From contig CAKZLY010000004.1 in the NCBI GenBank assembly GCA_937127445.1, forward strand, positions 1-36,389: a DNA stretch of 36,389 bases, read 5' to 3'. The translations under genes were made by a program, and so were the position numbers. Origin of the DNA: Eximiradius sp. Its GTDB lineage: Bacteria > Bacteroidota > Ignavibacteria > Kapaibacteriales > UBA2268. Shown in pieces: positions 1,275 to 36,389 of the stretch; positions within the stretch are counted from its first letter, which is position 1; every line of letters starts with the position of its first letter. The notes beneath the pieces are model-generated. The model saw only the letters and a program-made list of their open reading frames with translations, ran no database searches and had not been told where the DNA came from.

Positions 1275-2468
1275 CTAAAATCCTGTCATTATTCCTACTA
1301 CTGCTTTCCCAAATTTCCCTAATTCTTCACTATCGGTATATGTGTATTCAGCAAAAAAACGTAGATTTCGCCGAATAGCATGTCCTGCATGTAATGATAA
1401 TGACTTTTCGTTAAGTTCCTTGTAGTCGCTATTGACGTAGTTCAATAATATTGCTCCATAAGGACCCGAATTATCGCCTCGTGGAGTGAAAATCAATTCG
1501 GCAAATCCACCATCAGTTTTGATTTCTTTATCAATTGTCGAAGCCGCTGAATTACGAAGTGTATTTTTATCAGTTCGTAACAAATACTGAACGTTTAGTT
1601 CCAAAATATCATTATAGCTTAATGTCAAATCAGGTCCAAAAATCGTAAAATCTGTATTGCTTCGTGTGAAATTATTATTTACACTCTCCCGTCCAATATA
1701 CGAAAATGCTCCAATTCGAGCGAATTCTCCAATATCTTGCGAAATTCTTGCTGAATAGTTTTTATACTTATCCTTGTCGAATAATCTTGCTTCATTTGCA
1801 GCAGAAATGCCATTACCATTGCCCACTTGCAAAACAACGTCCGTGCCTGTTTCTAAACCAAAGGTAAGCATTATCCCACGGTCGTAAGCAAGATTTGCTT
1901 TTGCAAGCCCAACTTTTGTTTTATAGATGTTGTAATCAGCAAACGTCAAACGAAGCTCTCGCTTGAAAAGCGGATCAGAAACTTGATATTGTCCAACGTA
2001 TAAATCTAAATCAACATTAAATAAATCATTAAACATTATGTAAGCATCTTCAATCCCAGCAACTTCGCCTCTCTCTGAAAAGAAAAAGTAGAAATAATAT
2101 GCTACATCGGAAGCTATAGTCCCGCCCGATAAAATTTTCAACACATAGGGAGTTGCAAAATCTCCTTGTTTTTTGTTGGCAGTATTGTATGCTGCATTCA
2201 AATCTAATCGGAATCCAATAGGAAACTCTCGCATCAGCGAAAGTTGTCCGTCCCCTGTTTCAAGGAAATATCTTGGTGCTTCGCTATCTTTGAATTTAAA
2301 TCCGTTCCCTGCAAACTCATTCCCATATGGCTTGAGTCTTGGGGCAGGCGCATGGCAAGTTTGACAGGATAATCTATACTGACGAGCAAATGCCGGGATA
2401 GCCGATGCTTCGCTATATGCCTCTAAAAAAATACATACTACAAAAATGATAATAAATATATTTTTCAT
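1275..2468 (-). CDS. Outer-membrane beta-barrel with one N-terminal haem c motif
   Basis: From the chosen start it has 397 residues: a signal peptide (MKNIFIIIFVVCIFLEAYSEASA), then IPAFARQYRLSCQTCHAP with a CxxCH haem-attachment motif at residues 35-39. About 330 residues of alternating polar and hydrophobic strands follow, of the outer-membrane barrel type, ending in a C-terminal phenylalanine. Proteins beginning IPAFAR...C..CH..P.L...G are a recurring family near multihaem cytochromes. An earlier in-frame ATG at 2486 would overlap the upstream gene by 8 bp, but its codons contain an AAAGGTGA ribosome-binding site for the ATG at 2468, and the signal peptide starts at 2468. It follows the multihaem gene by 10 bp, so the two are probably co-transcribed. 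An electron-transfer or haem-sensing role at the outer membrane is inference. Confidence 0.75.
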   Translation of the reverse strand: MKNIFIIIFVVCIFLEAYSEASAIPAFARQYRLSCQTCHAPAPRLKPYGNEFAGNGFKFKDSEAPRYFLETGDGQLSLMREFPIGFRLDLNAAYNTANKKQGDFATPYVLKILSGGTIASDVAYYFYFFFSERGEVAGIEDAYIMFNDLFNVDLDLYVGQYQVSDPLFKRELRLTFADYNIYKTKVGLAKANLAYDRGIMLTFGLETGTDVVLQVGNGNGISAANEARLFDKDKYKNYSARISQDIGEFARIGAFSYIGRESVNNNFTRSNTDFTIFGPDLTLSYNDILELNVQYLLRTDKNTLRNSAASTIDKEIKTDGGFAELIFTPRGDNSGPYGAILLNYVNSDYKELNEKSLSLHAGHAIRRNLRFFAEYTYTDSEELGKFGKAVVGIMTGF

Positions 2469-2478
2469 TTTTTCACCT

Positions 2479-3813
2479 TTAATCAATTATTTTAATCTTT
2501 GCATAAGCTGTGTTTACTTCAAAAGGGCGGTATTCTTCTTCTGGTACCTTCAAATATTTTCCGACTGAACTTACAAGCAATTGATAATATAGCGTTGCTT
2601 TGAATGTAAGCTCTTTTGATTTGATTTTATCAGGGATGTGAAATGTAAAGTTTTCAATCTTTGTTTCCCGTGGACCTATGCGATAATCGACTCCGAGCGA
2701 CGAAGTGTTCCATTGTTGTATTGTCATTCTCCCTTGCGGATCAAAGTATGGCATACGAAAAATTCTATTGCCTTCGGGAATATCATCACGCTCTAAACCT
2801 TTGAAATTTGGGTCTTTTAGGGGAATCCCCATATCTTGATAGGCAAGCGTCTTTGTAGAAATAGTATATTCTTCGCCAGGAAAACCTTTCCGACTAACAG
2901 GAATATGGTATTTCGTCCCATTTCCATCAATTGCAACAAGTTCGAGCCATACTAATCTGTCTTCCACCGAACCTGTGGGAAACTTGTGCCCGGTTTTCTG
3001 GTTATATAGAGTAACTGTCAGCTTTAATGCATCGCCGGGTTCGCATTCGCTATGGTCCGGGTATACTTTCAGTTCGATCGTTCCGCGAACTTTCGATGGG
3101 TCGTGTGCCCCTGCAAAAATATGTTGCCTCACGTCAGGGTACACTTTCCCCATCGCAGCTTTGATGCTCTGTGCTCGTGGCATATGGCAATCTTGGCAGT
3201 GAACATTTTCTTTAGCATAAGGCCCTTCTTTCCATTCCAAATGTGTGGATTTCACCCATACCCCGTATGGACTTTTTTCGTTGTGGCAAATCCCACAGAA
3301 GTCCCCTGTTTTCATTATTGGATTTACTTCAATTTTGTGGACAGGCGAACCTACCTCACCAATTCGTGAGTTATACTTTGTTTTTCCAGGTTTTATAACG
3401 TAGTTGAAATTATAAGGGATGTCTCCCTCAAATCCTGAAATCAAATGGCATACTTCGCAGGATACTCCTTCGTTAGCTCGTGTACCTGCTGAAGGTGGTT
3501 TCGGAGGGATGTCGCCAGTAAGCAGTGCAAGTGGTGCGTGGCAACCATTGCATCCTGCTTCTACCTCTGCAACTTTTTCGTCAAGGCGAGCGTGTGGCAG
3601 TGCCAACGCAAAATACTCGATTTCGTCCCATTCGTGTGTGTACGATTGGGACATCATTGCTTGCGACCACTGATTGTAGATATCACGGTGGCAGGTCGTC
3701 CCACAATATTTCGGCGTTTCAAAATCAGAGTATTTATACTTTGGGGTATTTAAAAATGAAACTAAAAAAGTTGAAACGCATAATATTGTACTAACAAGTA
3801 GAATTTTTTTCAT
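2479..3813 (-). CDS. Secreted multihaem cytochrome c (five haem-binding motifs)
   Basis: A 444-residue exported protein with an N-terminal hydrophobic signal or anchor (residues 4-21). Five haem c motifs are visible: CGTTCH at 37-42, CNGCH at 88-92, CEVCH at 119-123, CGICH at 173-177 and CQDCH at 206-210. The first has three residues between the cysteines, an unusual CX3CH form. Histidines at 60, 74, 159, 191 and 205 are possible distal ligands. The N-terminal part resembles the cytochrome c554-like multihaem group. The region after about residue 240 is a beta-rich C-terminal domain with the TGHKFPTG motif (from about 275) seen in this family. It is the first gene of a pair with the barrel cytochrome downstream. 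The likely role is periplasmic or surface electron transfer; the specific electron donor or acceptor cannot be read. Confidence 0.85.
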   Translation of the reverse strand: MKKILLVSTILCVSTFLVSFLNTPKYKYSDFETPKYCGTTCHRDIYNQWSQAMMSQSYTHEWDEIEYFALALPHARLDEKVAEVEAGCNGCHAPLALLTGDIPPKPPSAGTRANEGVSCEVCHLISGFEGDIPYNFNYVIKPGKTKYNSRIGEVGSPVHKIEVNPIMKTGDFCGICHNEKSPYGVWVKSTHLEWKEGPYAKENVHCQDCHMPRAQSIKAAMGKVYPDVRQHIFAGAHDPSKVRGTIELKVYPDHSECEPGDALKLTVTLYNQKTGHKFPTGSVEDRLVWLELVAIDGNGTKYHIPVSRKGFPGEEYTISTKTLAYQDMGIPLKDPNFKGLERDDIPEGNRIFRMPYFDPQGRMTIQQWNTSSLGVDYRIGPRETKIENFTFHIPDKIKSKELTFKATLYYQLLVSSVGKYLKVPEEEYRPFEVNTAYAKIKIID

Positions 3814-3841: not shown

Positions 3842-4786
3842 TTAATTGTTGTTTCCCTCAATTAAATATCTTACTGTTGAAAGTAGTTCCCCTATCTGTG
3901 GCTTTGTTAGCTGAGCATTGGCACCGACTGCTTTGCCTTTGTGAAGCACATCTTCAGAAATTATTGAAGAAAATATAACAACAGGTAATTTTTGTAAAAT
4001 CGGGTCGGTCTTTATTAATTTAGTTAGCGTATAGCCATCCATTATTGGCATTTCAATATCGGTGATTACAATATCACAGTAATTTTCCAATTTATCGCCT
4101 TCACGCACTTTCTGAGCAATTTCTTGCAAACGTTTCCACGTTTCCTCGCCATTGTGAAATGCTTCAATTTCGAAACCTGCAATTTTCAATCTATCTGTAA
4201 TCATTCGGCGAATTGTTTGAGAATCCTCAGCTGTGATAGCTCGCAATTTTTTCTCAAATTTTTCCACTTTTTGTTTAATATCAATAGCAGATGATGGATC
4301 AATATCAGCAACAATTTTCTCAATATCAAGCATCAACACTGTTATATCTTTCAAATTTATGATCCCAACAATTGATGATTTGTCGCTTCCAAATTCCTCC
4401 ATAGCATCTGGTGTTGTTATATCTGTCCAAGAAATTCGGTGAATTCGCTTAACATCGGTTACAATTAATCCAACCCGCAGTTTATTAAATTCTGTAATAA
4501 TCATTTTGTTATATACCAAATCCGATGGAATACCATATAAATACTTACGCAAATCGAGCGCTGGGATTACCACTCCACGCAAGTTAAATACGCCACAAAC
4601 GCACTCATGTAAATTCGGTAGTTTCGTCAATTGCGGCATTCTTATGATTTCACGCACTTTCGCCACATTTACTCCAAATGATTGCGTCTGTTCTGCTCCG
4701 TTCTCGTTTGTAAAATCAATTACAAATTCAACTATTTCGAGTTCGTTTGTTCCAGTTTCAAGAAGAATATTTGTTTGAGTTGCCAT
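3842..4786 (-). CDS. cheV: Chemotaxis adaptor CheV (CheW-like domain plus receiver)
   Basis: A 314-residue soluble protein. Residues ~15-165 form a CheW-like domain with the diagnostic VREIIRMPQLTKLPN and GVFNLRGVVIPALDLR segments. Residues ~183-310 form a response-regulator receiver domain: acidic pair E187/D188, phospho-acceptor D243 in ITDIEMPIMDG, S273/S274 at the Thr/Ser switch position, and K295 in the LTKP motif. CheV couples receptors to the CheA kinase, and its phosphorylation is thought to aid adaptation. No CheA or methyl-accepting receptor lies in this window, so its partners must be elsewhere. It lies 28 bp upstream of the cytochrome pair on the same strand, so co-transcription is possible. 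Confidence 0.93.
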   Translation of the reverse strand: MATQTNILLETGTNELEIVEFVIDFTNENGAEQTQSFGVNVAKVREIIRMPQLTKLPNLHECVCGVFNLRGVVIPALDLRKYLYGIPSDLVYNKMIITEFNKLRVGLIVTDVKRIHRISWTDITTPDAMEEFGSDKSSIVGIINLKDITVLMLDIEKIVADIDPSSAIDIKQKVEKFEKKLRAITAEDSQTIRRMITDRLKIAGFEIEAFHNGEETWKRLQEIAQKVREGDKLENYCDIVITDIEMPIMDGYTLTKLIKTDPILQKLPVVIFSSIISEDVLHKGKAVGANAQLTKPQIGELLSTVRYLIEGNNN

Positions 4787-26265: not shown

Positions 26266-29200
26266 ATGATTAAATCCTTCACGCGATTTATTTTAATCGC
26301 TCTTTTGTTCGTTGTTGGGTATTCTCTAAATGCTCAAGTCATTGTTCAAACATCTCAAGACACTGCTACTTACACATCATTGAAATTAGCCTTCGATGCA
26401 ATTAATGTCGGTGCTTTTACTGGCAATATTGAAGTGCTAATTGATGATAATCTTGTAGAGACCGATCCACCCGTGCTAAAAGCTTCTGGTGTCGGTAGTG
26501 CAAATTACACATCAGTTGTAATTTTCCCTACAAGTGAATACACTATCTCAGGCAGTATCGGCAGCTACAAAGCAATTATTATTCTCGAAGATGCCGATAA
26601 CGTTACTATCGATGGGCGTGTAAACCGCACTGGTAATTTAAATGGGCTGACAATACAAAACACAGCCACATCCAATGCTGCTGGAATATGGGTAGCTCGC
26701 TCAAGTTCTGGCAACGGCGCTAATAATGTTACCATCAGAAATGTAAATGTAATTGGTGCCTCTGCTTCGACAAGCTCCATTTTCGGCATAGTTTCCGGAT
26801 TGTATTCCACATCTTCTTTCACTTCTGCTGGAACTAATAATACTACGAAAATACTTAATTGCAACGTCTATAGAGCATACTATGGTATACGTATTTATGC
26901 CAGCTCTTCTCCAAGAGCAACAGGAATTGAAATACGAAACAATAATATTGGGAATAATGCCACTGCTGGCGACGGCTGTTATTATGGCTACTATACCTAT
27001 TACACCGAGGGATTGATAATGGATAACAACAAATTATCAATCAATTCATCAAGTGCTTGTTATTCATATTATATATACTATGCTAATAATTCTGTTATTA
27101 CAAATAACACTGTTGAAAATACTACAACTGGTTCTACCTTATATGGCTACTATACACCATATTTGACTAACAGTCTGTTGGAGAACAACTCCATTAAGAA
27201 TTCCGTTTCAACTGCATTTTACGGTGTTTATCTAACTTCTACCTCAACTGGAAATACATTTAATAATTGCGAAATTTCAAATATTTCCGGCTCTTCCACA
27301 ATGTATTGTTGGTATGTTCTTGGCACAAGTGCAAACAATACATTTAATAACTGTACAATAAAGAATATTTCGAACAGTTCAACATCAGCTTTAGCAGCAA
27401 TTTATAACTCCTCTGGCTCAAACAATGACTATAATGGATTGAAAATAAGTAATATACAAGGAAATGCCAATGTCTACGGTATTTATCTCGCAAGTGCTGC
27501 CAACACAACTGTTCGTAATTGCGAGATAACAAACATTTCCACTGGTTCAGCAAGCACAACAACCTCTGCATATGGTATATATGTCTCTTCTTCTTGTGAT
27601 CAATCACGCTTTATTAATAATTCGATTTCTAGGATATTCGATGCTGTTAACAAAACTTCGTTCCAGTATATCCCATCTGGTATTATGCTCTTTGGTAGTA
27701 TTAATCATCAAATTTATAACAACTCAATAAATATTTATGGGAATAAAACAGTTTCTGGTTCTACTCAAGGTTTCTCTGCTGGTATTGCTTTGAACACATC
27801 TGTTACTGGCTGCGACATACGAAACAACTCTATTGTTAACACTCAAATAAATTCCGTTGCTTCTTCTAAATCTTTTGCAATTTACTTTGGAGCAGATGCG
27901 CCATTCAATTCTGGAACAGTAAATTACAACAATTATTTTGTATCTGGAAGTAATGCCGTTCTTGCTGGTATTGGATCTACAGATTTCACTAATTTGACAG
28001 CATTTAAAAATAGAGATACACTAAAAAACACCAATTCCATTAGCGTAAATCCTCTTTACAACTCAAATACTAACTTGCGACCTTACTATGGCTCTCCACT
28101 TATTGCAGCTGGAACTCCTTTAAGCCTTGTAACTACCGACTTAGATGGCAATACTCGCTCAACAACTTCGCCTTCAATTGGTGCTTTCGAAATTGAAGGT
28201 GATTTTATCGCTCCTGAAATTGTATTCCAGCCAATTCTAAATACTACAAGCACGTCTAATGTTACACTTCTTGTCGGTATCTCTGACAATACTGCCGTGG
28301 ACACAGTTAATAAGCCACGTCTATACTACCGAAAAAAGACAAACCTTAATACTTTCATCGATAATACTAACCAAACAAACGGATGGAAATACGTTGAGCC
28401 AATTTCTATTTCTGGTAATTCTTTTACTTTTGAAATAGATTATTCAAAAATATATGGTGGCGTTTATCAGGGAACTGCTATTGAGTATTTTGTTATTGCA
28501 CAAGACATCAATAATCCCGCAAATGTAGCCGTCAGCGATGGTAAATTTACAGTTTCTCCTTCATCTGTCAATTTGACGATCTCTAATTTCCCTGTTGCTG
28601 TTACTTCAAACTATGTTATTGCTGCTCCATTATCTGGTGTAATTCAAGTTGGACAGGGTCAAACTTATACATCACTTACTAAACCGGGTGGCGTTTTCGA
28701 ACTGCTACAACTTAGCGTTCTAACTGGGGATTTAGACATTCAGATTACTTCCGATTTGGAAGAAACAGGTCAAATCCCTCTCGAAGCCATTACTTCACAA
28801 GGCGGAAGCTATTTTATTAAGATTTATCCTACCGGTAATTATACAATTAGTGGGACAGGTGATGCAATAATTCGACTGGAAGATGCTGATAGAGTTATTA
28901 TCGATGGCCGTGTTAATGCAACAGGTAATACACCTGCATTAACCATTGTTAATAACGGACCTGGTGCAGTCATCTGGCTTTACCGAGGTGATAAATTTAG
29001 TGCAAATGGTGCGAGAAACAACACTATTCGCTATTGTAATATTGTCAGTAGCAATCCTTCTTCAGCAGGTTATTATGGTATTGTGCTTAGCGGTAAAGCG
29101 TCTCTTACAAGTGGTGCTGCTGGTAACATAGATAATGTAATTGAATATAACAATATTTATCGTGCCTATTTTGGTATTCGTGCTTACGGTGCTTCGGATG

Positions 29201-32200
29201 GTTATCTAACTGGTTTAAAGATTCGCAATAATAACTTTGGGAATAATCTAACAGAAGGGGATGGTCTTTATTACGCTATTTACACATATTTTTGCGACTT
29301 CCCCGAAATTACAGACAATAATATCCTATCAAATTCATCTTCTGTTCACTATGGTATGTATGTCTATTATTGCAACAATGCTCTTATTCAAGGGAATTCA
29401 ATTCAATCGACATCCACTTCTACTTTCTATGCTATTTACGTCGGATACAACAATAATTCATTAGTTACTGAAAACGAAATTTCCAATACTTCGTCAACAA
29501 CAATATACGGTAACTATTTATACTACTGCAATAATTCAACGTCAAGCAACAATTTGATTCAGAATAATATTTCTTCTTCCGCTCAATATCTTATTTATTC
29601 ATATTATGGTTCTGCAAATACTATAACAAACAACAAAATATTAAATAATCAGGGCGGTTCTTCTGTTGCTTATGGTGTTTATGTTTACTATCACTCTAAT
29701 GGGATAGTAACAAATAACATAATTAAAAATTTGAGCTCCACTACCACTGCAAATGGGATTTATGTTTACAATAGTTCCTCGAATATTACTAATGCCCTTA
29801 TAGCAAATAATACAATTCAAAATTTATCTAATTCAAGTGCAACAACAGGTATTGCTGGTATTGATCTCTATTATGCTCATCAAACAAAACTGTATAATAA
29901 TGCAATCAGTGGTGTTTCTAAAACATCTGCAACGACTGATCCACTTTACATTCCTGCTGGTATTAGAATTCGCTATGGAACTGATATTCAAGTTTATCAT
30001 AATACTGTTCATATCACAGGTGATTTTTCTAATGTTGGTGGTGATTTAAATTCAGCTGCCTTAGTAATTAACTACAGTACTGCAACTGCGTGGAATGTTA
30101 GAAATAATACATTTTCAAATAATGCCGTAGCAACACCTAACTCTGAATCCTACGCAATTGTTATTCCTGACGCGGCAAGTTTGACAAATTCTATTATTGA
30201 CTACAATAATTATTATGTATCTGGCAGTAATGGTGTATTGGGTAATTTTGCTGGTGTTGATAGACCAACTTTAGTACTTTGGAAAGCTGCTACTAATCAA
30301 GATCAAAATTCAATGAATTTTGCACCAGTATTTAATAGTGATATCGATGTGATTCCTTTTACAAACGCATTTATGGGTCTTGGTACTCCAATCGCTGCTG
30401 TTACAACAGACTTATTCGGTAATACACGTTCAACAACTGCACCAGCAATAGGCGCCTTCGAAACTTTTGGTGATTATGTTCCTCCGACAATCAATTTATC
30501 TTTGCTTGGTCACACAGTATCTACTGGTAATAGATCTACAACTGCTGTTATTAATGACTTAAGTGGTGTGAGCACGGGTGCTTACGCTCCACGAATTTAT
30601 TTCAAGAAAAAGACAAATGCGAATACTTATGTTGATAATACACCTGCTACAAATGGTTGGAAATATACAGTTGCAACAGGTACTGCGCCTAATTTCTCCT
30701 TTACAATCAACACTGCACTAATTCACGGTGGAGTTTCTGTTGGTGATGAAATCGAATATTTCGTAGTTGCTCAGGACAACTCTGCTGTTCATAAGGTTGC
30801 ATTATCTCATGGTGAATTTACTACTGAACCATCAAGTGTTCAACTTGTTGCTGCAAACTTCCCAATCAAGAGATTGTACGTTTCTTATAAAGTTAAACCC
30901 CAAGTTGCTGGTATTATTGAAGTTGGCGCCGGAAAACAATTTGAAAACCTAACAGGTATGAACGGAGTATTCGCATATATCAACAATAGAGTTCTTTCTG
31001 GCAATTTACATATTAAACTCACATCTGATTTAGTTGAACCAGGCACAATTCGTTTGCAGGAAATACCATCTGATGCAACAACTCCTTACACTATTTATAT
31101 TTATCCAACTACTGAAATTGAAATTTCCGGCCCTGCTCAGAACGCTCTAATTACATTCGAAGATGTTGATAACCTTGTATTTGACGGAAGAATTAACATG
31201 ACTGGTACCGAAAATGCTGTTACTCTTGAGAATACCCAGTCCTCGCAAGCTGTCCTTTGGATTAAGAAAGGTACTCTAAGTACAAGTAATGGGGCTAATA
31301 ATGTTACAGTTAGGAATTTAAATATTATTGGTCCATCGAGCACCTCTACTTGCTATGGTATCATTGTAGGTGGGGGAACAAGTATTTCAGCTGCTGGTGG
31401 TAATAGAAACGTTCAATTACTATACAACAATGTTTATAGATCTTACTATGGCATACGTGTTTATGCTTCCTCTGCTGATAAATCTTTTGGAACTAAAATT
31501 AAATTTAATAGCTTTGGTAATAATGCAGCTCCAAATGATGGGCATTACTATGCTCTTTATGTTTATTATGCTGATAGCACCGAAATAACACATAATACAT
31601 TCAAAGTTAGTACAACCAGCACTATCTATAACTTGTATTGTTATTATTCTAACAACACCTTTGTTTATTCGAATACATTCGCTAACAGTACTGCTTCCTC
31701 AACTTATTATGGTATTTACTTGTCCTACTCTCACAATAGTACAGCTCTCAATAATATTATAGAAAGCAACAATCTAACCTCTACGCTTTACGGTATATAT
31801 CCATATTACTCAAACAACGTTAATGTAAGTAACAACATAATTCGTAATAATCAGATAAGTTCAGCTTATTATATCTACCCTTATTACGGATCCGACAATT
31901 CAGTAATTGGGAACACTATTGAGAATAATACAAGCTCTTATCACTATGGAATTTACAATTATTATTCAACTAACCCTACAATTGAAAGTAACGTAACAAG
32001 AAATAACACAGCTATTAACTCTTTCTATGGTTTATACCTTTCATCCCCTGGTGCTGGCAACTTTAACTATAACGAAATAGTCGATAATACAGCTAATTCA
32101 TCTACTTATGGTATTTATCTGTCTTCTGGCGGTAACAGCAACATTATTGGTAATACGATAAAGAATTTGCAAGGTGGTTCAAGTACGTATGGTATTTACC

Positions 32201-35200
32201 TTACTTCATCCGCCAATGTCAAAATTCTTGCTAACAAAATTGGGTACATCCGCCAAATTTCGGGTACATCTACATCTTATTGCGATGGTATCTACGTTGG
32301 CTCTTCTTGCAACAATACTGAAATAGTGAACAACGAAATTGCAGGTATCTATGACTACATAAATAAAACTTCAAATGTTTATATTCCTTCGGGAATCAGA
32401 ATACACGCAAGCGTTGGCCATAAGATTTACTACAATTCCGTTAATATGTACGGCAACACTTATTCGACTAGCACTGCTGCCGGTGCTTCAACCGCACTTA
32501 TGATTTATACCAGCTCAACAAACAATATTGACGTTCGCAATAATGTTTTCGTAAATACAATGACCGGACCTTCCAATTATAAAGGGTATGCAATATATAT
32601 AACAAGTGGTGCAAGTTTGACAAACTCAACCTTTAACTACAATAATTATTTTGTTGATGGTCCTAATGGCAAATTAGCATTCATTACTCAAGACATTGAT
32701 ACTTTCCCTGTTTTACAGGCTCTTACCGGTCAGGACATCAATTCCTTAAATGTTAACCCACTATTTAACAATAATGAGGTCCTTGTCCCTGTTGATGGTA
32801 GCCCACTTGAGGGAGCAGGGACTCCAATTTTGGCTTATAGTACAGACATACTGGGTAATATGCGTTCTACTTCTGTCCCATTTATTGGTGCTTACGAAGT
32901 ATCCGGTGATCTTGTTCCACCATCAATTACATTTGTTCCTTTGCTTAATACTTCTGAAACAACAAATAGAACTATTCAAGCAACGGTATTAGATTATAGT
33001 GGTGTAAACAATACTTTAAATCCGCCAAGAATATATTTCCGTAAGAAATCTAATGCAAATGTATTTATCGACAATACCCCTGCAACTGATGGATGGAAAT
33101 ATACAACTGGTGCTGGTTCCGGCTACTCCTTCAATTTCACTATCGATTACAACTTGTTATACGGTGGTGTTGCTCCCGGTGATGAAATAGAATACTTCAT
33201 TATTGCACAAGATAATTCTCCAAACCAACTAACAGGTGCGTCAAGTGGCATTTTTAACATCGCTCCTGTTTCAACACTTTTAAATGTTAATAACTTCCCT
33301 GTAGAAAATGTTAAACACAGTTATTTTATCTCCATTCCTTTTGCTGGCATTATTGAAGTTGGACAAGGAAAACCATTCACAAGTTTAACAAACTCTGATG
33401 GTCTTTTTGCTGCACTTAATAACAGTGTTCTAGTAGGTAATTTGCAAGTTCGCATTACTTCAAACCTTACTGAAACTGGTACTGTCCCTCTAAAGAAAAT
33501 TGTTTGCGAAAACAATAATCCATACACTATTAGCATTTATCCAGCTGGTAATTATACAATTAGCGGTGCAGCTCCTACTTCTATGATTACTCTCGATGGT
33601 GCTGAACGTGTTACGATAGATGGTCGTATTAATCGAACCGGAACTACAAACGCTTTAACTATTCAGAATACACAATCTTCTGCTGCTGTCATCAGAATGA
33701 TAAATAGTGTTAAAAATATCACTATCAGAAACTGTAACGTTATAAGTGCAGCAGCTACAAGCACTTGCTACGGTATAGTTGCAAGCGCTCCTTCAAGCTT
33801 GACTACTGGTTCTGGTGGAAATGATAGTATTGCAATCCTATATAATAATATTTATCGTGCATATTACGGTATCCGTCTTGCTGGTGTCTCTGGTGAACCA
33901 ATTATTGCTCCTCGTGTTATTGGAAATAAATTCGGTAATAATGGCACTAGCGGCGATGGCCATTATTACGCACTTTATGTTTCCTATTCAAGCTATGCTA
34001 CTATTGATAGTAACAATATTCACGTCAACTCCTCTTCCGCCTGCTACACTTTGTATAATTACTATAATGTAAATAGTTCTGTGAAATACAATACTATTCG
34101 ATATCAAGGTACAAGCTCCTTCTATGCGATTTATAACTATTATTCTGATTTCTCTGATGTTAGCTACAACCGTATTGAAAATAGCAATTCTTCACTGATT
34201 TATGCTCTTTACTCATACTATCCGAAAAGTGCCACCTATACAGGCAACATTATCCGCAACAATTCTTCGACCTCTACTACTTACTATATTTATTCATATT
34301 ATACTCAAAGCAGCACTTTCTCGAATAATATTGTAGAAAACAATCTTTCAACTTCTACACAGTACCTTGCATATCTGTATTATGGTAATACAACAACTCT
34401 ATCGAATAACATTTTCCGAAATAACAACAATACTGGAACTAGCACAGTTTATGGCATCTACGTATATTATCATCCTAATGCAGTTATTACAGGCAATACA
34501 ATTAGTGGCATTACGGCAAATTCAACTTTGAGTGGTATTTATGTATATTCTGCATCAACATCAACTACCTCAAATAATACTCAAATCAGAAACAACTTGA
34601 TTGAAAATATCAATAGAACTGCAACGTCAACTACCTCTTACGTTGCTGGTATTGCAATTGGCGGTAATGCAAACAACACTCAGATAACAAATAACATTAT
34701 AAGAAATATCAATGATTTAACCCCACAGACTACTGCAACTTATATTCCTTCTGGTATCAGAATTAACGGTAGTACTGGTCACACAATCGCATACAACACT
34801 GTTGATCTATCCGGCGAATATACTGCTAATGGAGCAACAATGTCTTCTGCATTTGTTATTGCAGTTACAGATCTAACAGGTTGCACAATCAAAAACAATA
34901 CATTTAACAACTCAATGTACGGTGTCTCTGGCAGCAGATCTTACGCTGTATTCCACGATGGCACTGGTTTCACAGGGGGTGAACTTAATTACAATAATTA
35001 TTTTGTCAGTGGTTCACAAGGCATCGTTGCTTACTTTAGCGGTGATTTGCCAAATCTTGCCACTTGGCGTACTCTAACAAATGCAGATGCTAATTCAATA
35101 AGTGCAAATCCACAATTTGCGAACCCAGCTTACCGTGACTATCGACCATTGGTAGGCTCACCGCTTGCAGGGGCTGGCTCACCTGTATCAGGAGTAACGA

Positions 35201-36389
35201 CGGACATTCTTGGAGTAACTCGCTCAACAACAGCCCCGACAATAGGAGCATACGAAAATGCTATACTAATAGGCGTACCAATGCTGCTGTCGCCATCAAA
35301 CGGACAAGAGAACATATCAATATCAGCAATATTAGAATGGGGTTCCGTATATACAGCGACGGGCTACAATTTACAGGTTTCTACCTCGCCAACATTTGCA
35401 ACGTTTGTGTATAACGATACAGTAACAGCATTGCAAAAGCAATTGACAGGGTTGTCGTACAACACAGTATATTACTGGCGAGTGCGTGCAGTGCGCCCAG
35501 GTGTAATAGGTGGATGGTCAGAAGTATACAATTTCCGTACACAATTGCCACCATTGGGAGTGCCGAGCTTATCACAACCGTTCGACAATGCAACAAATGT
35601 ATCGATAAATCCGACATTTAGCTGGTCAAGCGTAGCAACTACGACAGGTTACCAATTGCAAGTAGCGAGCGATGCAACATTCACGAATGTAGTTAAAGAT
35701 GAAACATCAACTACCACAAGCAAAGCAGTAACCGGCTTAAGCTACAATACACAATATTGGTGGCGAGTAAGAGCATTACGTGGAAGCGAACAAGGTTCTT
35801 GGAGCAGCATACGCACATTTACCACGATTGTGCAGCTACTGCCGCCAACATTGCAAACACCAGCGAATTTAGCAACGAACGTAACAATAAATCCGGCATT
35901 GAACTGGGATGCATACCCAACAGCGACAGGCTACAAGATACAAGTATCTACAAGCAGCACATTTGCAACTACGATAGTCAATGAAACAGTAACAGGTACA
36001 AGTCGTTCGTTGAGCAACTTGCAGTATCTAACGACATACTACTGGCGAGTAAAATCAGTTCGTGGTAGCGAAGAGAGCGATTGGTCAACAGTGTGGTCGT
36101 TTACGACGCAGAATGTACCACTGGTGGCACCTGTGCTAACTTCACCGACGAACAATGCAGTAGATGTATCAATATCCCCGACATTACAATGGAATGCAGC
36201 AGCGACAGCGACAGGCTACAAGATACAAGTATCTACAAGCAGCACATTTGCAACTACGATAGTCAATGAAACAGTAACAGGTACAAGTCGTTCGTTGAGC
36301 AACTTGCAGTATCTAACGACATACTACTGGCGAGTAAAATCAGTTCGTGGTAGCGAAGAGAGCGATTGGTCAACAGTGTGGTCGTTTAC
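26266..36389 (+). CDS. Giant secreted beta-helix/Ig/Fn3 surface protein (3' end outside window)
   Basis: One open frame of 3374 codons without a stop, running off the window. Signal peptide MIKSFTRFILIALLFVVGYS, predicted cleavage near LNA-Q (residue 24). Four super-modules follow. Each has a header with GN..V.I..DL.E and a TIDGR(V/I)N element, a parallel beta-helix of Asn/Ser/Thr/Tyr-rich rungs of about 26-29 residues, a cap containing YIP(S/A)GI and NYNNYFVSGS, and a closing DLxGNTRSTTxPxIGAFE motif like that of choice-of-anchor-Q proteins. Ig-like linkers (YYRKKTN...NGWKY...EYFVIAQD) follow the first three; Fn3 domains follow the fourth. It is surely exported and very likely displayed or released at the surface as an elongated rod. 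The route (type IX secretion) would need the missing C-terminus. Adhesin, stalk or polysaccharide-binding roles are possible; none is shown. Confidence 0.9.
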   Translation, partial: MIKSFTRFILIALLFVVGYSLNAQVIVQTSQDTATYTSLKLAFDAINVGAFTGNIEVLIDDNLVETDPPVLKASGVGSANYTSVVIFPTSEYTISGSIGSYKAIIILEDADNVTIDGRVNRTGNLNGLTIQNTATSNAAGIWVARSSSGNGANNVTIRNVNVIGASASTSSIFGIVSGLYSTSSFTSAGTNNTTKILNCNVYRAYYGIRIYASSSPRATGIEIRNNNIGNNATAGDGCYYGYYTYYTEGLIMDNNKLSINSSSACYSYYIYYANNSVITNNTVENTTTGSTLYGYYTPYLTNSLLENNSIKNSVSTAFYGVYLTSTSTGNTFNNCEISNISGSSTMYCWYVLGTSANNTFNNCTIKNISNSSTSALAAIYNSSGSNNDYNGLKISNIQGNANVYGIYLASAANTTVRNCEITNISTGSASTTTSAYGIYVSSSCDQSRFINNSISRIFDAVNKTSFQYIPSGIMLFGSINHQIYNNSINIYGNKTVSGSTQGFSAGIALNTSVTGCDIRNNSIVNTQINSVASSKSFAIYFGADAPFNSGTVNYNNYFVSGSNAVLAGIGSTDFTNLTAFKNRDTLKNTNSISVNPLYNSNTNLRPYYGSPLIAAGTPLSLVTTDLDGNTRSTTSPSIGAFEIEGDFIAPEIVFQPILNTTSTSNVTLLVGISDNTAVDTVNKPRLYYRKKTNLNTFIDNTNQTNGWKYVEPISISGNSFTFEIDYSKIYGGVYQGTAIEYFVIAQDINNPANVAVSDGKFTVSPSSVNLTISNFPVAVTSNYVIAAPLSGVIQVGQGQTYTSLTKPGGVFELLQLSVLTGDLDIQITSDLEETGQIPLEAITSQGGSYFIKIYPTGNYTISGTGDAIIRLEDADRVIIDGRVNATGNTPALTIVNNGPGAVIWLYRGDKFSANGARNNTIRYCNIVSSNPSSAGYYGIVLSGKASLTSGAAGNIDNVIEYNNIYRAYFGIRAYGASDGYLTGLKIRNNNFGNNLTEGDGLYYAIYTYFCDFPEITDNNILSNSSSVHYGMYVYYCNNALIQGNSIQSTSTSTFYAIYVGYNNNSLVTENEISNTSSTTIYGNYLYYCNNSTSSNNLIQNNISSSAQYLIYSYYGSANTITNNKILNNQGGSSVAYGVYVYYHSNGIVTNNIIKNLSSTTTANGIYVYNSSSNITNALIANNTIQNLSNSSATTGIAGIDLYYAHQTKLYNNAISGVSKTSATTDPLYIPAGIRIRYGTDIQVYHNTVHITGDFSNVGGDLNSAALVINYSTATAWNVRNNTFSNNAVATPNSESYAIVIPDAASLTNSIIDYNNYYVSGSNGVLGNFAGVDRPTLVLWKAATNQDQNSMNFAPVFNSDIDVIPFTNAFMGLGTPIAAVTTDLFGNTRSTTAPAIGAFETFGDYVPPTINLSLLGHTVSTGNRSTTAVINDLSGVSTGAYAPRIYFKKKTNANTYVDNTPATNGWKYTVATGTAPNFSFTINTALIHGGVSVGDEIEYFVVAQDNSAVHKVALSHGEFTTEPSSVQLVAANFPIKRLYVSYKVKPQVAGIIEVGAGKQFENLTGMNGVFAYINNRVLSGNLHIKLTSDLVEPGTIRLQEIPSDATTPYTIYIYPTTEIEISGPAQNALITFEDVDNLVFDGRINMTGTENAVTLENTQSSQAVLWIKKGTLSTSNGANNVTVRNLNIIGPSSTSTCYGIIVGGGTSISAAGGNRNVQLLYNNVYRSYYGIRVYASSADKSFGTKIKFNSFGNNAAPNDGHYYALYVYYADSTEITHNTFKVSTTSTIYNLYCYYSNNTFVYSNTFANSTASSTYYGIYLSYSHNSTALNNIIESNNLTSTLYGIYPYYSNNVNVSNNIIRNNQISSAYYIYPYYGSDNSVIGNTIENNTSSYHYGIYNYYSTNPTIESNVTRNNTAINSFYGLYLSSPGAGNFNYNEIVDNTANSSTYGIYLSSGGNSNIIGNTIKNLQGGSSTYGIYLTSSANVKILANKIGYIRQISGTSTSYCDGIYVGSSCNNTEIVNNEIAGIYDYINKTSNVYIPSGIRIHASVGHKIYYNSVNMYGNTYSTSTAAGASTALMIYTSSTNNIDVRNNVFVNTMTGPSNYKGYAIYITSGASLTNSTFNYNNYFVDGPNGKLAFITQDIDTFPVLQALTGQDINSLNVNPLFNNNEVLVPVDGSPLEGAGTPILAYSTDILGNMRSTSVPFIGAYEVSGDLVPPSITFVPLLNTSETTNRTIQATVLDYSGVNNTLNPPRIYFRKKSNANVFIDNTPATDGWKYTTGAGSGYSFNFTIDYNLLYGGVAPGDEIEYFIIAQDNSPNQLTGASSGIFNIAPVSTLLNVNNFPVENVKHSYFISIPFAGIIEVGQGKPFTSLTNSDGLFAALNNSVLVGNLQVRITSNLTETGTVPLKKIVCENNNPYTISIYPAGNYTISGAAPTSMITLDGAERVTIDGRINRTGTTNALTIQNTQSSAAVIRMINSVKNITIRNCNVISAAATSTCYGIVASAPSSLTTGSGGNDSIAILYNNIYRAYYGIRLAGVSGEPIIAPRVIGNKFGNNGTSGDGHYYALYVSYSSYATIDSNNIHVNSSSACYTLYNYYNVNSSVKYNTIRYQGTSSFYAIYNYYSDFSDVSYNRIENSNSSLIYALYSYYPKSATYTGNIIRNNSSTSTTYYIYSYYTQSSTFSNNIVENNLSTSTQYLAYLYYGNTTTLSNNIFRNNNNTGTSTVYGIYVYYHPNAVITGNTISGITANSTLSGIYVYSASTSTTSNNTQIRNNLIENINRTATSTTSYVAGIAIGGNANNTQITNNIIRNINDLTPQTTATYIPSGIRINGSTGHTIAYNTVDLSGEYTANGATMSSAFVIAVTDLTGCTIKNNTFNNSMYGVSGSRSYAVFHDGTGFTGGELNYNNYFVSGSQGIVAYFSGDLPNLATWRTLTNADANSISANPQFANPAYRDYRPLVGSPLAGAGSPVSGVTTDILGVTRSTTAPTIGAYENAILIGVPMLLSPSNGQENISISAILEWGSVYTATGYNLQVSTSPTFATFVYNDTVTALQKQLTGLSYNTVYYWRVRAVRPGVIGGWSEVYNFRTQLPPLGVPSLSQPFDNATNVSINPTFSWSSVATTTGYQLQVASDATFTNVVKDETSTTTSKAVTGLSYNTQYWWRVRALRGSEQGSWSSIRTFTTIVQLLPPTLQTPANLATNVTINPALNWDAYPTATGYKIQVSTSSTFATTIVNETVTGTSRSLSNLQYLTTYYWRVKSVRGSEESDWSTVWSFTTQNVPLVAPVLTSPTNNAVDVSISPTLQWNAAATATGYKIQVSTSSTFATTIVNETVTGTSRSLSNLQYLTTYYWRVKSVRGSEESDWSTVWSF
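26338..28620 (+). repeat. Super-module 1 (header, beta-helix, cap, Ig-like linker)
   Basis: Header YTSLKLAFDAIN at about 26371, DGRVN at 26623, then rungs such as LYGYYTPYLTNSLLENNSIK and FYGVYLTSTSTGNTFNNCEI. The cap is YIPSGIMLFGSINHQIYNNS, followed by NYNNYFVSGSNAVLA near 27922. The closer RSTTSPSIGAFE spans 28156-28191, and the Ig-like linker (IAPEIVFQPILN to SNFPV) follows. DGRVN-to-DGRVN distance to super-module 2 is 2280 bp. Confidence 0.8.
28621..30894 (+). repeat. Super-module 2 (header, beta-helix, cap, Ig-like linker)
   Basis: Header VGQGQTYTSLTKPGGVFELL, DGRVN at 28903, then rungs with repeated YGxYVYY strings. The cap is YIPAGIRIRYGTDIQVYHNT, followed by DYNNYYVSGSNGVLG near 30199. 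The closer RSTTAPAIGAFE spans 30427-30462, and the Ig-like linker has IYFKKKTNANTYVDNTPA. The DGRVN-to-DGRIN distance to super-module 3 is again 2280 bp. Confidence 0.8.
30895..33336 (+). repeat. Super-module 3 (header, beta-helix, cap, Ig-like linker)
   Basis: Header VGAGKQFENLTGMNGVFAYI, DGRIN at 31183, then a longer beta-helix with rungs such as YGIYPYYSNNVNVSNNIIRN. The cap is YIPSGIRIHASVGHKIYYNS, followed by NYNNYFVDGPNGKLA. The closer RSTSVPFIGAYE spans 32863-32898, and the Ig-like linker has IYFRKKSNANVFIDNTPA. The distance from its DGRIN to that of super-module 4 is 2436 bp, 52 codons longer than the first two periods, about two extra rungs. Confidence 0.8.
33337..35268 (+). repeat. 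Super-module 4 (header, beta-helix, cap, closer without Ig linker)
   Basis: Header VGQGKPFTSLTNSDGLFAAL, DGRIN at 33619, rungs such as YATIDSNNIHVNSSSACYTL, cap YIPSGIRINGSTGHTIAYNT, then NYNNYFVSGSQGIVA near 34984. The closer RSTTAPTIGAYE spans 35221-35256. In place of an Ig-like linker, Fn3 domains start at once. Codon choice changes within the last ~100 bp of this module, inside the closer region. Confidence 0.8.
35920..36104 (+). repeat. 185-bp direct repeat, copy 1
   Basis: Identical base for base to 36205-36389, offset 285 bp, within Fn3 domain 3. Synonymous sites are also identical, unlike the other Fn3 domains. Confidence 0.95.
36205..36389 (+). repeat. 185-bp direct repeat, copy 2 (may continue past the window)
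   Basis: Identical to 35920-36104. Identity reaches the last base of the window, so the true repeat may be longer. Confidence 0.95.

Follow-up and report, generated by a model that had tools for sequence, protein, structure and literature searches.

Adjacent minus-strand genes in a 36,389-nucleotide stretch of Eximiradius sp. (contig CAKZLY010000004.1 of assembly GCA_937127445.1, hereafter the window) encode a pentahaem c-type cytochrome and an outer-membrane barrel protein that carries a haem motif of its own. Judged by its recurrence across genomes, the pair is a real two-gene unit. On balance, we consider it probable that this unit serves electron transfer at the outer membrane, with a plugged 16-strand porin of the Cyc2 type and a dedicated pentahaem partner in the periplasm.

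An earlier note on this DNA, made from the letters alone, had described a five-motif cytochrome gene followed after 10 bp by a barrel with one CxxCH near its mature N-terminus. The reading frames of the window confirm both genes, the cytochrome running from 3813 to 2479 and the barrel from an ATG at 2468 to 1275; an alternative, longer barrel start, a TTG at 2486, would overlap the end of the cytochrome gene. The 10-bp spacing proved exact, and CQTCH is the sole haem motif of the barrel protein. The count of five cytochrome motifs also stood, but only four read CxxCH, the first being CxxxCH. The features of the pair, with lengths in amino acids (aa), are as follows.

1275-2468, minus strand: Cyc2-like fused cytochrome-porin, 397 aa (published Cyc2 motif, model, fold matches)
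1278-2219, minus strand: predicted 16-strand porin barrel, residues 84-397 (model, fold matches)
1884-1985, minus strand: long loop between barrel strands 5 and 6, residues 162-195, a possible constriction loop (model, conservation)
2289-2402, minus strand: N-terminal haem plug of the barrel protein, residues 23-60, beginning AIPAFARQYRLSCQTCHAPAPRLKPYG (sequence, conservation)
2352-2366, minus strand: single haem motif CQTCH of the barrel protein, residues 35-39 (sequence, alignment)
2469-2478, no strand: intergenic gap, exactly 10 bp (frame coordinates)
2479-3813, minus strand: pentahaem c-type cytochrome, 444 aa, Thermochromatium tepidum c552/ExtKL-like (Pfam, 5ZE8 sequence and fold matches)
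2482-3081, minus strand: immunoglobulin (Ig)-like beta domain at the cytochrome C-terminus, residues ~245-444 (model; structural matches to residues ~240-444)
3184-3198, minus strand: cytochrome haem motif 5, CQDCH (sequence, alignment)
3283-3297, minus strand: cytochrome haem motif 4, CGICH (sequence, alignment)
3445-3459, minus strand: cytochrome haem motif 3, CEVCH (sequence, alignment)
3538-3552, minus strand: cytochrome haem motif 2, CNGCH (sequence, alignment)
3688-3705, minus strand: cytochrome haem motif 1, CGTTCH, of the CxxxCH form (sequence)

Pairing of the two genes across genomes

Relatives of the barrel gene were collected at 76 loci, nearly all from metagenome bins, so that single taxon assignments may be wrong; one bin labelled Melioribacter roseus (L018) has the pair. 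The records of the loci are labelled Kapabacteria, Ignavibacteria, Bacteroidales, Zixibacteria, Aminicenantes, Calditrichaeota, Kryptoniota and Acidobacteriota. At 73 of the 76 loci the barrel gene is immediately preceded, in the same orientation, by the cytochrome gene or by the end of that gene at a contig stop; the median gap across these 73 relatives is 24 bp, and 61 of them have a gap of at most 50 bp. The adjacency on which the earlier note had staked its proposal is thus conserved. Among the three exceptions, one barrel sits at a contig edge (L082), one is a broken copy in Stygiobacter electus with an in-frame stop, its plug and cytochrome gone (L072:6001-6930), and the third, from Nitrospinaceae (L083), is weighed below.

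Across 395 genomes of the phylum, strong matches (E < 1e-80 for the barrel, E < 1e-150 for the cytochrome) to both proteins were found in 25, to the barrel only in one and to the cytochrome only in none, and the two genes are adjacent in each of the 25. A further 77 genomes hold only weaker barrel matches, which among the matches listed fall mostly in the N-terminal plug region, and 48 further genomes hold only weaker cytochrome matches. Within its own genome, each of the window's two proteins matched only itself. Pairwise identities of the barrels and of the cytochromes correlate with r = 0.90 over 58 loci, a value that none of 2000 permutations reached and that shared ancestry alone would also give.

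Beyond the pair, gene neighbourhoods vary. When open reading frames of at least 80 aa were clustered over the 76 loci and the window, many of them with flanks short at contig ends, the commonest neighbour families among the largest clusters listed reached only 14 of the 77 loci, and flanks differed between lineages. On these counts a larger conserved gene cluster was rejected, and the conserved unit comprises two genes, in line with the two proteins visible to the earlier note. Just 28 bp upstream of the window's cytochrome lies a gene with CheW and receiver domains on the same strand (3842-4786); among the largest clusters listed, this neighbour and a TonB-receptor gene recur in just the three nearest relatives. 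Elsewhere in the window, positions 26266-36387 hold a very long, repetitive, secreted-type open frame of more than 3,300 aa, which runs off the window and by eye appears to contain repeated right-handed-helix and fibronectin-like segments.

The fused cytochrome-porin and its pentahaem neighbour

The published definition of Cyc2 combines AXPXFAR[Q/K][T/Y] before CXXCH, PXL after it, a length of at least 365 aa and a porin domain (PMC8406198). The window's barrel protein agrees on each point, reading AIPAFARQY-RLS-CQTCH-APA-PRL in a chain of 397 aa whose model fuses the motif region to a 16-strand porin. Three residues separate AIPAFARQY from the first Cys, as in the cluster-1-like sequence L123, and the Cyc2 paper places the motif five residues upstream of CXXCH (PMC8406198). 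These traits recur among the relatives: exactly one CxxCH is present in 75 of 76, the exception being the broken copy, and PXL follows it in 73 of those 75, the P in the window being the fourth residue past the motif. The strict AXPXFAR[Q/K][T/Y] form occurs in 58 of the 75 CxxCH-bearing relatives, while the other 17 deviate at one position, which in 15 cases is the first A.

A structural model computed from 62 aligned sequences (61 of the 72 full-length relatives and the window's protein) predicts 16 strands, each of at least 8 residues, with a mean predicted local distance difference test (pLDDT) score of 82.1; the earlier note had regarded 12 or fewer strands as incompatible with its conduit. 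Foldseek ranked general porins such as Omp32, PorB and OmpC highest, and structural re-alignment was led by Omp32 (Z 25.6) and OprP/OprO (Z 25.5 and 25.4), OprO and OprP being the reported modelling templates for Cyc2 (PMC8406198). Sequence searches gave no Pfam or NCBIfam match for the window's barrel, matches in single members only across the 62, and no credible solved relative. Conservation averages 0.82 in the haem plug, among the highest regions of the protein, and from residue 84 onward the 62 sequences share 30 invariant columns, many of them charged or aromatic. At 34 residues, the loop joining strands 5 and 6 is long and fairly well conserved; it occupies what we take to be the position of the constriction loop L3 in classical porins, and in the model it may form a pore eyelet.

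Exactly five haem motifs, CxxCH or CxxxCH, are present in all 61 full-length cytochrome relatives counted, and this regularity, together with the single CxxCH in 75 of 76 barrels, indicates that the motif sets are more than chance. No exchange of Cys or His occurs in any of the six motifs across the aligned 62 barrels and 56 cytochromes, the latter comprising 55 of the 61 full-length relatives and the window's protein. Under a strict pattern, the first cytochrome motif reads CxxxCH in 24 of 73 relatives and CxxCH in 34, with 15 unscored, some truncated and some simply missed by the pattern. This switch (at 3688-3705 in the window) occurs in a family whose aligned members share at least 56% identity with the window's cytochrome. 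Six His residues outside the haem motifs are also invariant, enough as far as sequence can tell for five bis-His haems.

The Pfam matches of the cytochrome are of the c7/c554/NapC type. Its sole solved relative matched along nearly the whole length is the pentahaem c552 of T. tepidum, 5ZE8 (profile E 5e-10, Foldseek E 2e-20), whose structural alignment extends over 344 residues at 24% identity with a Z of 26.3. Structural matches assign the last 200 residues to an Ig-like domain, giving the arrangement of the pentahaem c552/PHC kind, namely five haem motifs, then an Ig-like domain, in the 5ZE8 fold. ExtKL (NF040886) is the best-scoring NCBIfam model (E 5e-11), yet its 41.8 bits against a cut-off of 250 fail the equivalog threshold, which agrees with distant kinship to ExtKL rather than membership. 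CxxCK, the catalytic haem motif of the nitrite reductase NrfA, is absent from the cytochrome, and NrfA was rejected, the two NCBIfam models (cut-offs 595 and 692.5) scoring 19.8 and 19.1 bits and the Pfam model (cut-off 24.1) 18.1 bits. A lipoprotein or surface cytochrome was likewise set aside, as by eye the window's protein has a hydrophobic N-terminus with no lipobox; in several relatives, signal peptides of a type I-like kind with their ends near AQ are visible by eye. In work on cable bacteria, a pentahaem family including Geobacter ExtKL is proposed, its small members are described as structurally homologous to the T. tepidum protein, and a suggested connection between that protein and the cytochrome nanowires of archaea is reported (PMC11976967). 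Loci L155-L164, from relatives in the same order and class, hold distant pentahaem cytochromes, beside which no haem-bearing barrel was seen by eye; in five of the ten (L155, L156, L159, L160, L164) a lipoprotein-like gene, also identified by eye, precedes the cytochrome.

Barrel relatives also occur alone. At 24 loci with weak barrel matches, a subset of such matches and several of them from the same genomes, no such cytochrome was found in flanks of 1.5-3 kb (1.5 kb at four loci, about 3 kb or less per side at 20), and a pattern search located the plug motif at 21 of them. A tree was built from the window's barrel together with 17 of its pair-forming relatives, the gene from Nitrospinaceae and, from those 21 loci, 24 proteins; L126, L132 and L135 yielded no protein by the motif pattern and are not in it. 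In this one tree, the 18 pair-forming barrels fall on one side of a branch supported at 100/98, with the Nitrospinaceae gene as nearest neighbour, and stand apart from two sequences with cluster-1-like motifs and from the solitary Cyc2-like proteins, although support is weak for several deep branches, long branches join one another and the root was placed arbitrarily. Loci L119-L130, in family f26, show one to four Cyc2-like profile matches per genome, mostly to the plug, with no pentahaem partner at the fetched loci.

Electron flow and rival explanations

If the six motifs are occupied by haem and the two proteins touch, the plug haem would lie at the periplasmic mouth of the pore, the position proposed for Cyc2 (PMC8406198). 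The pentahaem cytochrome would relay electrons between that haem and a periplasmic or inner-membrane chain, and the pore would give a soluble redox compound (an oxyanion, a metal complex or dissolved iron, for example) access to the plug haem. We slightly prefer outward flow, in which an external acceptor would be reduced, to Fe(II) oxidation, and keep both. Two points speak for outward flow: the T. tepidum relative is called 'low-potential' in the title of its paper, as given in a reference list (PMC11976967), against a haem potential of 208 mV for Cyc2PV-1 (PMC8406198); and a FeGenie table rates Cyc2 cluster 3 as probable iron oxidation and possible iron reduction, with iron reducers carrying it (PMC7005843). 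A minimal wire running outward from the periplasm through five haems and the plug haem to a soluble acceptor in the conserved pore, a reductive counterpart of Cyc2, is offered as a tentative idea that we would not call probable. In the window's own genome, L116:5641-6984 on C3 encodes a ten-motif cytochrome with, by eye, a lipobox-like AGCSDDDKD with acidic residues, adjoining another such lipoprotein (GCSDDDDD); from its sequence, this decahaem lipoprotein may be surface-located and might contact the barrel from its outer side.

An ordinary Fe(II)-oxidising Cyc2, from which the pentahaem cytochrome would carry electrons inward, appears rather unlikely to us. It would account well for a barrel that agrees with the published sequence and fold of Cyc2, three representatives of which have biochemical evidence of Fe(II) oxidation (PMC8406198), and it gains from DeMMO, where cluster 3 made up most of the Cyc2 that FeGenie detected at sites D2-D6, and where iron-oxidation genes turned up in Ignavibacteriales and Zixibacteria (PMC8478452). 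However, the pair-forming barrels separate from the two cluster-1-like sequences in our one tree, a low-potential c552 relative (by the title listed in PMC11976967) would be an awkward acceptor for a haem like that of Cyc2PV-1 at 208 mV, and cluster-3 cyc2 occurs in iron reducers too (PMC7005843). A haem-copper oxidase is present in all 25 high-quality pair-bearing genomes searched, but all 46 pair-free relatives picked from the match tables of the phylum genomes have one too, which makes its presence uninformative; we therefore rejected any deduction of direction from terminal oxidases. Over 55 pair-bearing genomes, haem-copper oxidase was found in 41 and bd oxidase in 51, and no haem-copper match appeared in 14 of the 30 genomes behind other pair loci, whose completeness is not stated. 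Both types of oxidase, and an NrfHA-like pair, are also encoded in the window's own genome.

Another reading is a substrate channel with a reductase, in which the barrel would admit a soluble acceptor (selenite, arsenate, nitrite or similar) for the cytochrome to reduce in the periplasm, the barrel's own haem being minor or sensory; this resembles the role discussed for Geobacter ExtI with ExtKL (PMC5877670), and we judge it unlikely. Loss of ExtI lowers selenite and tellurite reduction, with ExtKL encoded in the same cluster (PMC5877670), and ExtKL, though below cut-off, is the best NCBIfam model for the cytochrome. The six invariant extra His need not all be axial ligands, but they would also suffice for a pure wire of five bis-His haems, and a plug that ranks among the most conserved regions of the barrel is hard to explain in a plain channel. 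The absence of an NrfA-type CxxCK weighs against this reading as well. That the genes adjoin merely for reasons of expression, without working together, is very improbable given an adjacency that holds in the same order at 73 of 76 loci despite differing flanks, the near-perfect co-occurrence in the 395 genomes and, with its proviso about shared ancestry, the correlated divergence, although one genome (G148) keeps the barrel without the cytochrome.

Several observations weigh against a Cyc2-type porin with a dedicated pentahaem partner. The G148 barrel lies mid-contig without its partner, and the Nitrospinaceae barrel, 33% identical, also lacks the cytochrome, so the barrel can exist alone. 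Stops interrupt one partner in two phylum genomes (the barrel in G070, the cytochrome in G341), and cytochrome frames are truncated at L034 and L067. The nearest neighbour by barrel is the nearest by cytochrome at only 26 of 58 loci, for which reason we do not claim strict joint inheritance at fine scale. In the model, the haem plug and its seat are of low confidence (block pLDDT about 47-62), and oxidase content does not settle the direction of flow.

The barrel type is probably already known to the field, since Cyc2-like genes have been reported in these taxa, including Cyc2 homologues in humic-bog bins assigned to Ignavibacteriaceae and Bacteroidetes (PMC6344600). Three loci of the set (L024, L030, L033) carry DeMMO isolate names and may hold the genes flagged there by FeGenie. 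Searches of an open-access library yielded no report of a fixed pairing with a pentahaem cytochrome, which is weak evidence, most subscription papers lying outside the search. Cyc2-like genes serve as markers of microbial iron oxidation, and the pair-forming clade cautions against reading every one as an iron oxidase. Were the outward wire correct, a reductive Cyc2 counterpart would exist in Ignavibacteria, Kapabacteria, Bacteroidales, Zixibacteria, Aminicenantes and others, where annotation tools are liable to call iron oxidation. The pair also provides a ready partner for studying the mechanism and direction of electron hand-over by a fused cytochrome-porin, and as a two-gene unit it is an easy target for heterologous expression.

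Comparison with known electron conduits

The earlier note had likened the pair to porin-cytochrome conduits and suggested checking whether the barrel could hold the cytochrome. As in MtrAB, MtoAB and OmbB-OmaB-OmcB, a barrel gene adjoins a multihaem cytochrome gene, with outer-membrane electron transfer as the likely role, and to that extent the likeness stands; the haem motif that the note saw on the barrel itself is likewise confirmed. In contrast, a haem-free sheath of about 26 strands was ruled out by the 16 strands, the porin fold and the haem motif of the window's barrel; MtrAB-type barrels have 26 strands (PMC8406198), their cytochromes carry ten haems against five here, and this unit includes no gene for an outer cytochrome. 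Since the modelled barrel is, in size and fold, a typical porin of 16 strands, a 444-aa pentahaem protein with an Ig-like domain is very unlikely to fit inside it. The idea of electron transfer survives the failure of the Mtr picture.

With c552 (5ZE8) and the PHC-ExtKL proteins, the cytochrome shares five haem motifs, a C-terminal Ig-like domain and a fold matched over nearly its whole length, and ExtKL is likewise encoded in a cluster with a porin gene (PMC5877670). That cluster is large, however, with a haem-free porin, ExtI, and other cytochromes (PMC5877670), and the window's protein scores far below the ExtKL cut-off and belongs to relatives whose first motif is in part CxxxCH.

The closest known kind is the fused cytochrome-porin Cyc2, as in Acidithiobacillus, Mariprofundus and Leptospirillum (Cyt572), with the pentahaem protein as a separate and probably periplasmic partner. 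Both have the AXPXFAR[Q/K][T/Y]-CXXCH-PXL plug, a 16-strand porin and a single haem motif, and OprO/OprP are among the nearest folds of the window's barrel. They differ in that the window's barrel has a pentahaem gene of its own, falls in a clade separate from the two cluster-1-like sequences in the one tree, and keeps 30 invariant columns in a porin domain that is poorly conserved in Cyc2 (PMC8406198).

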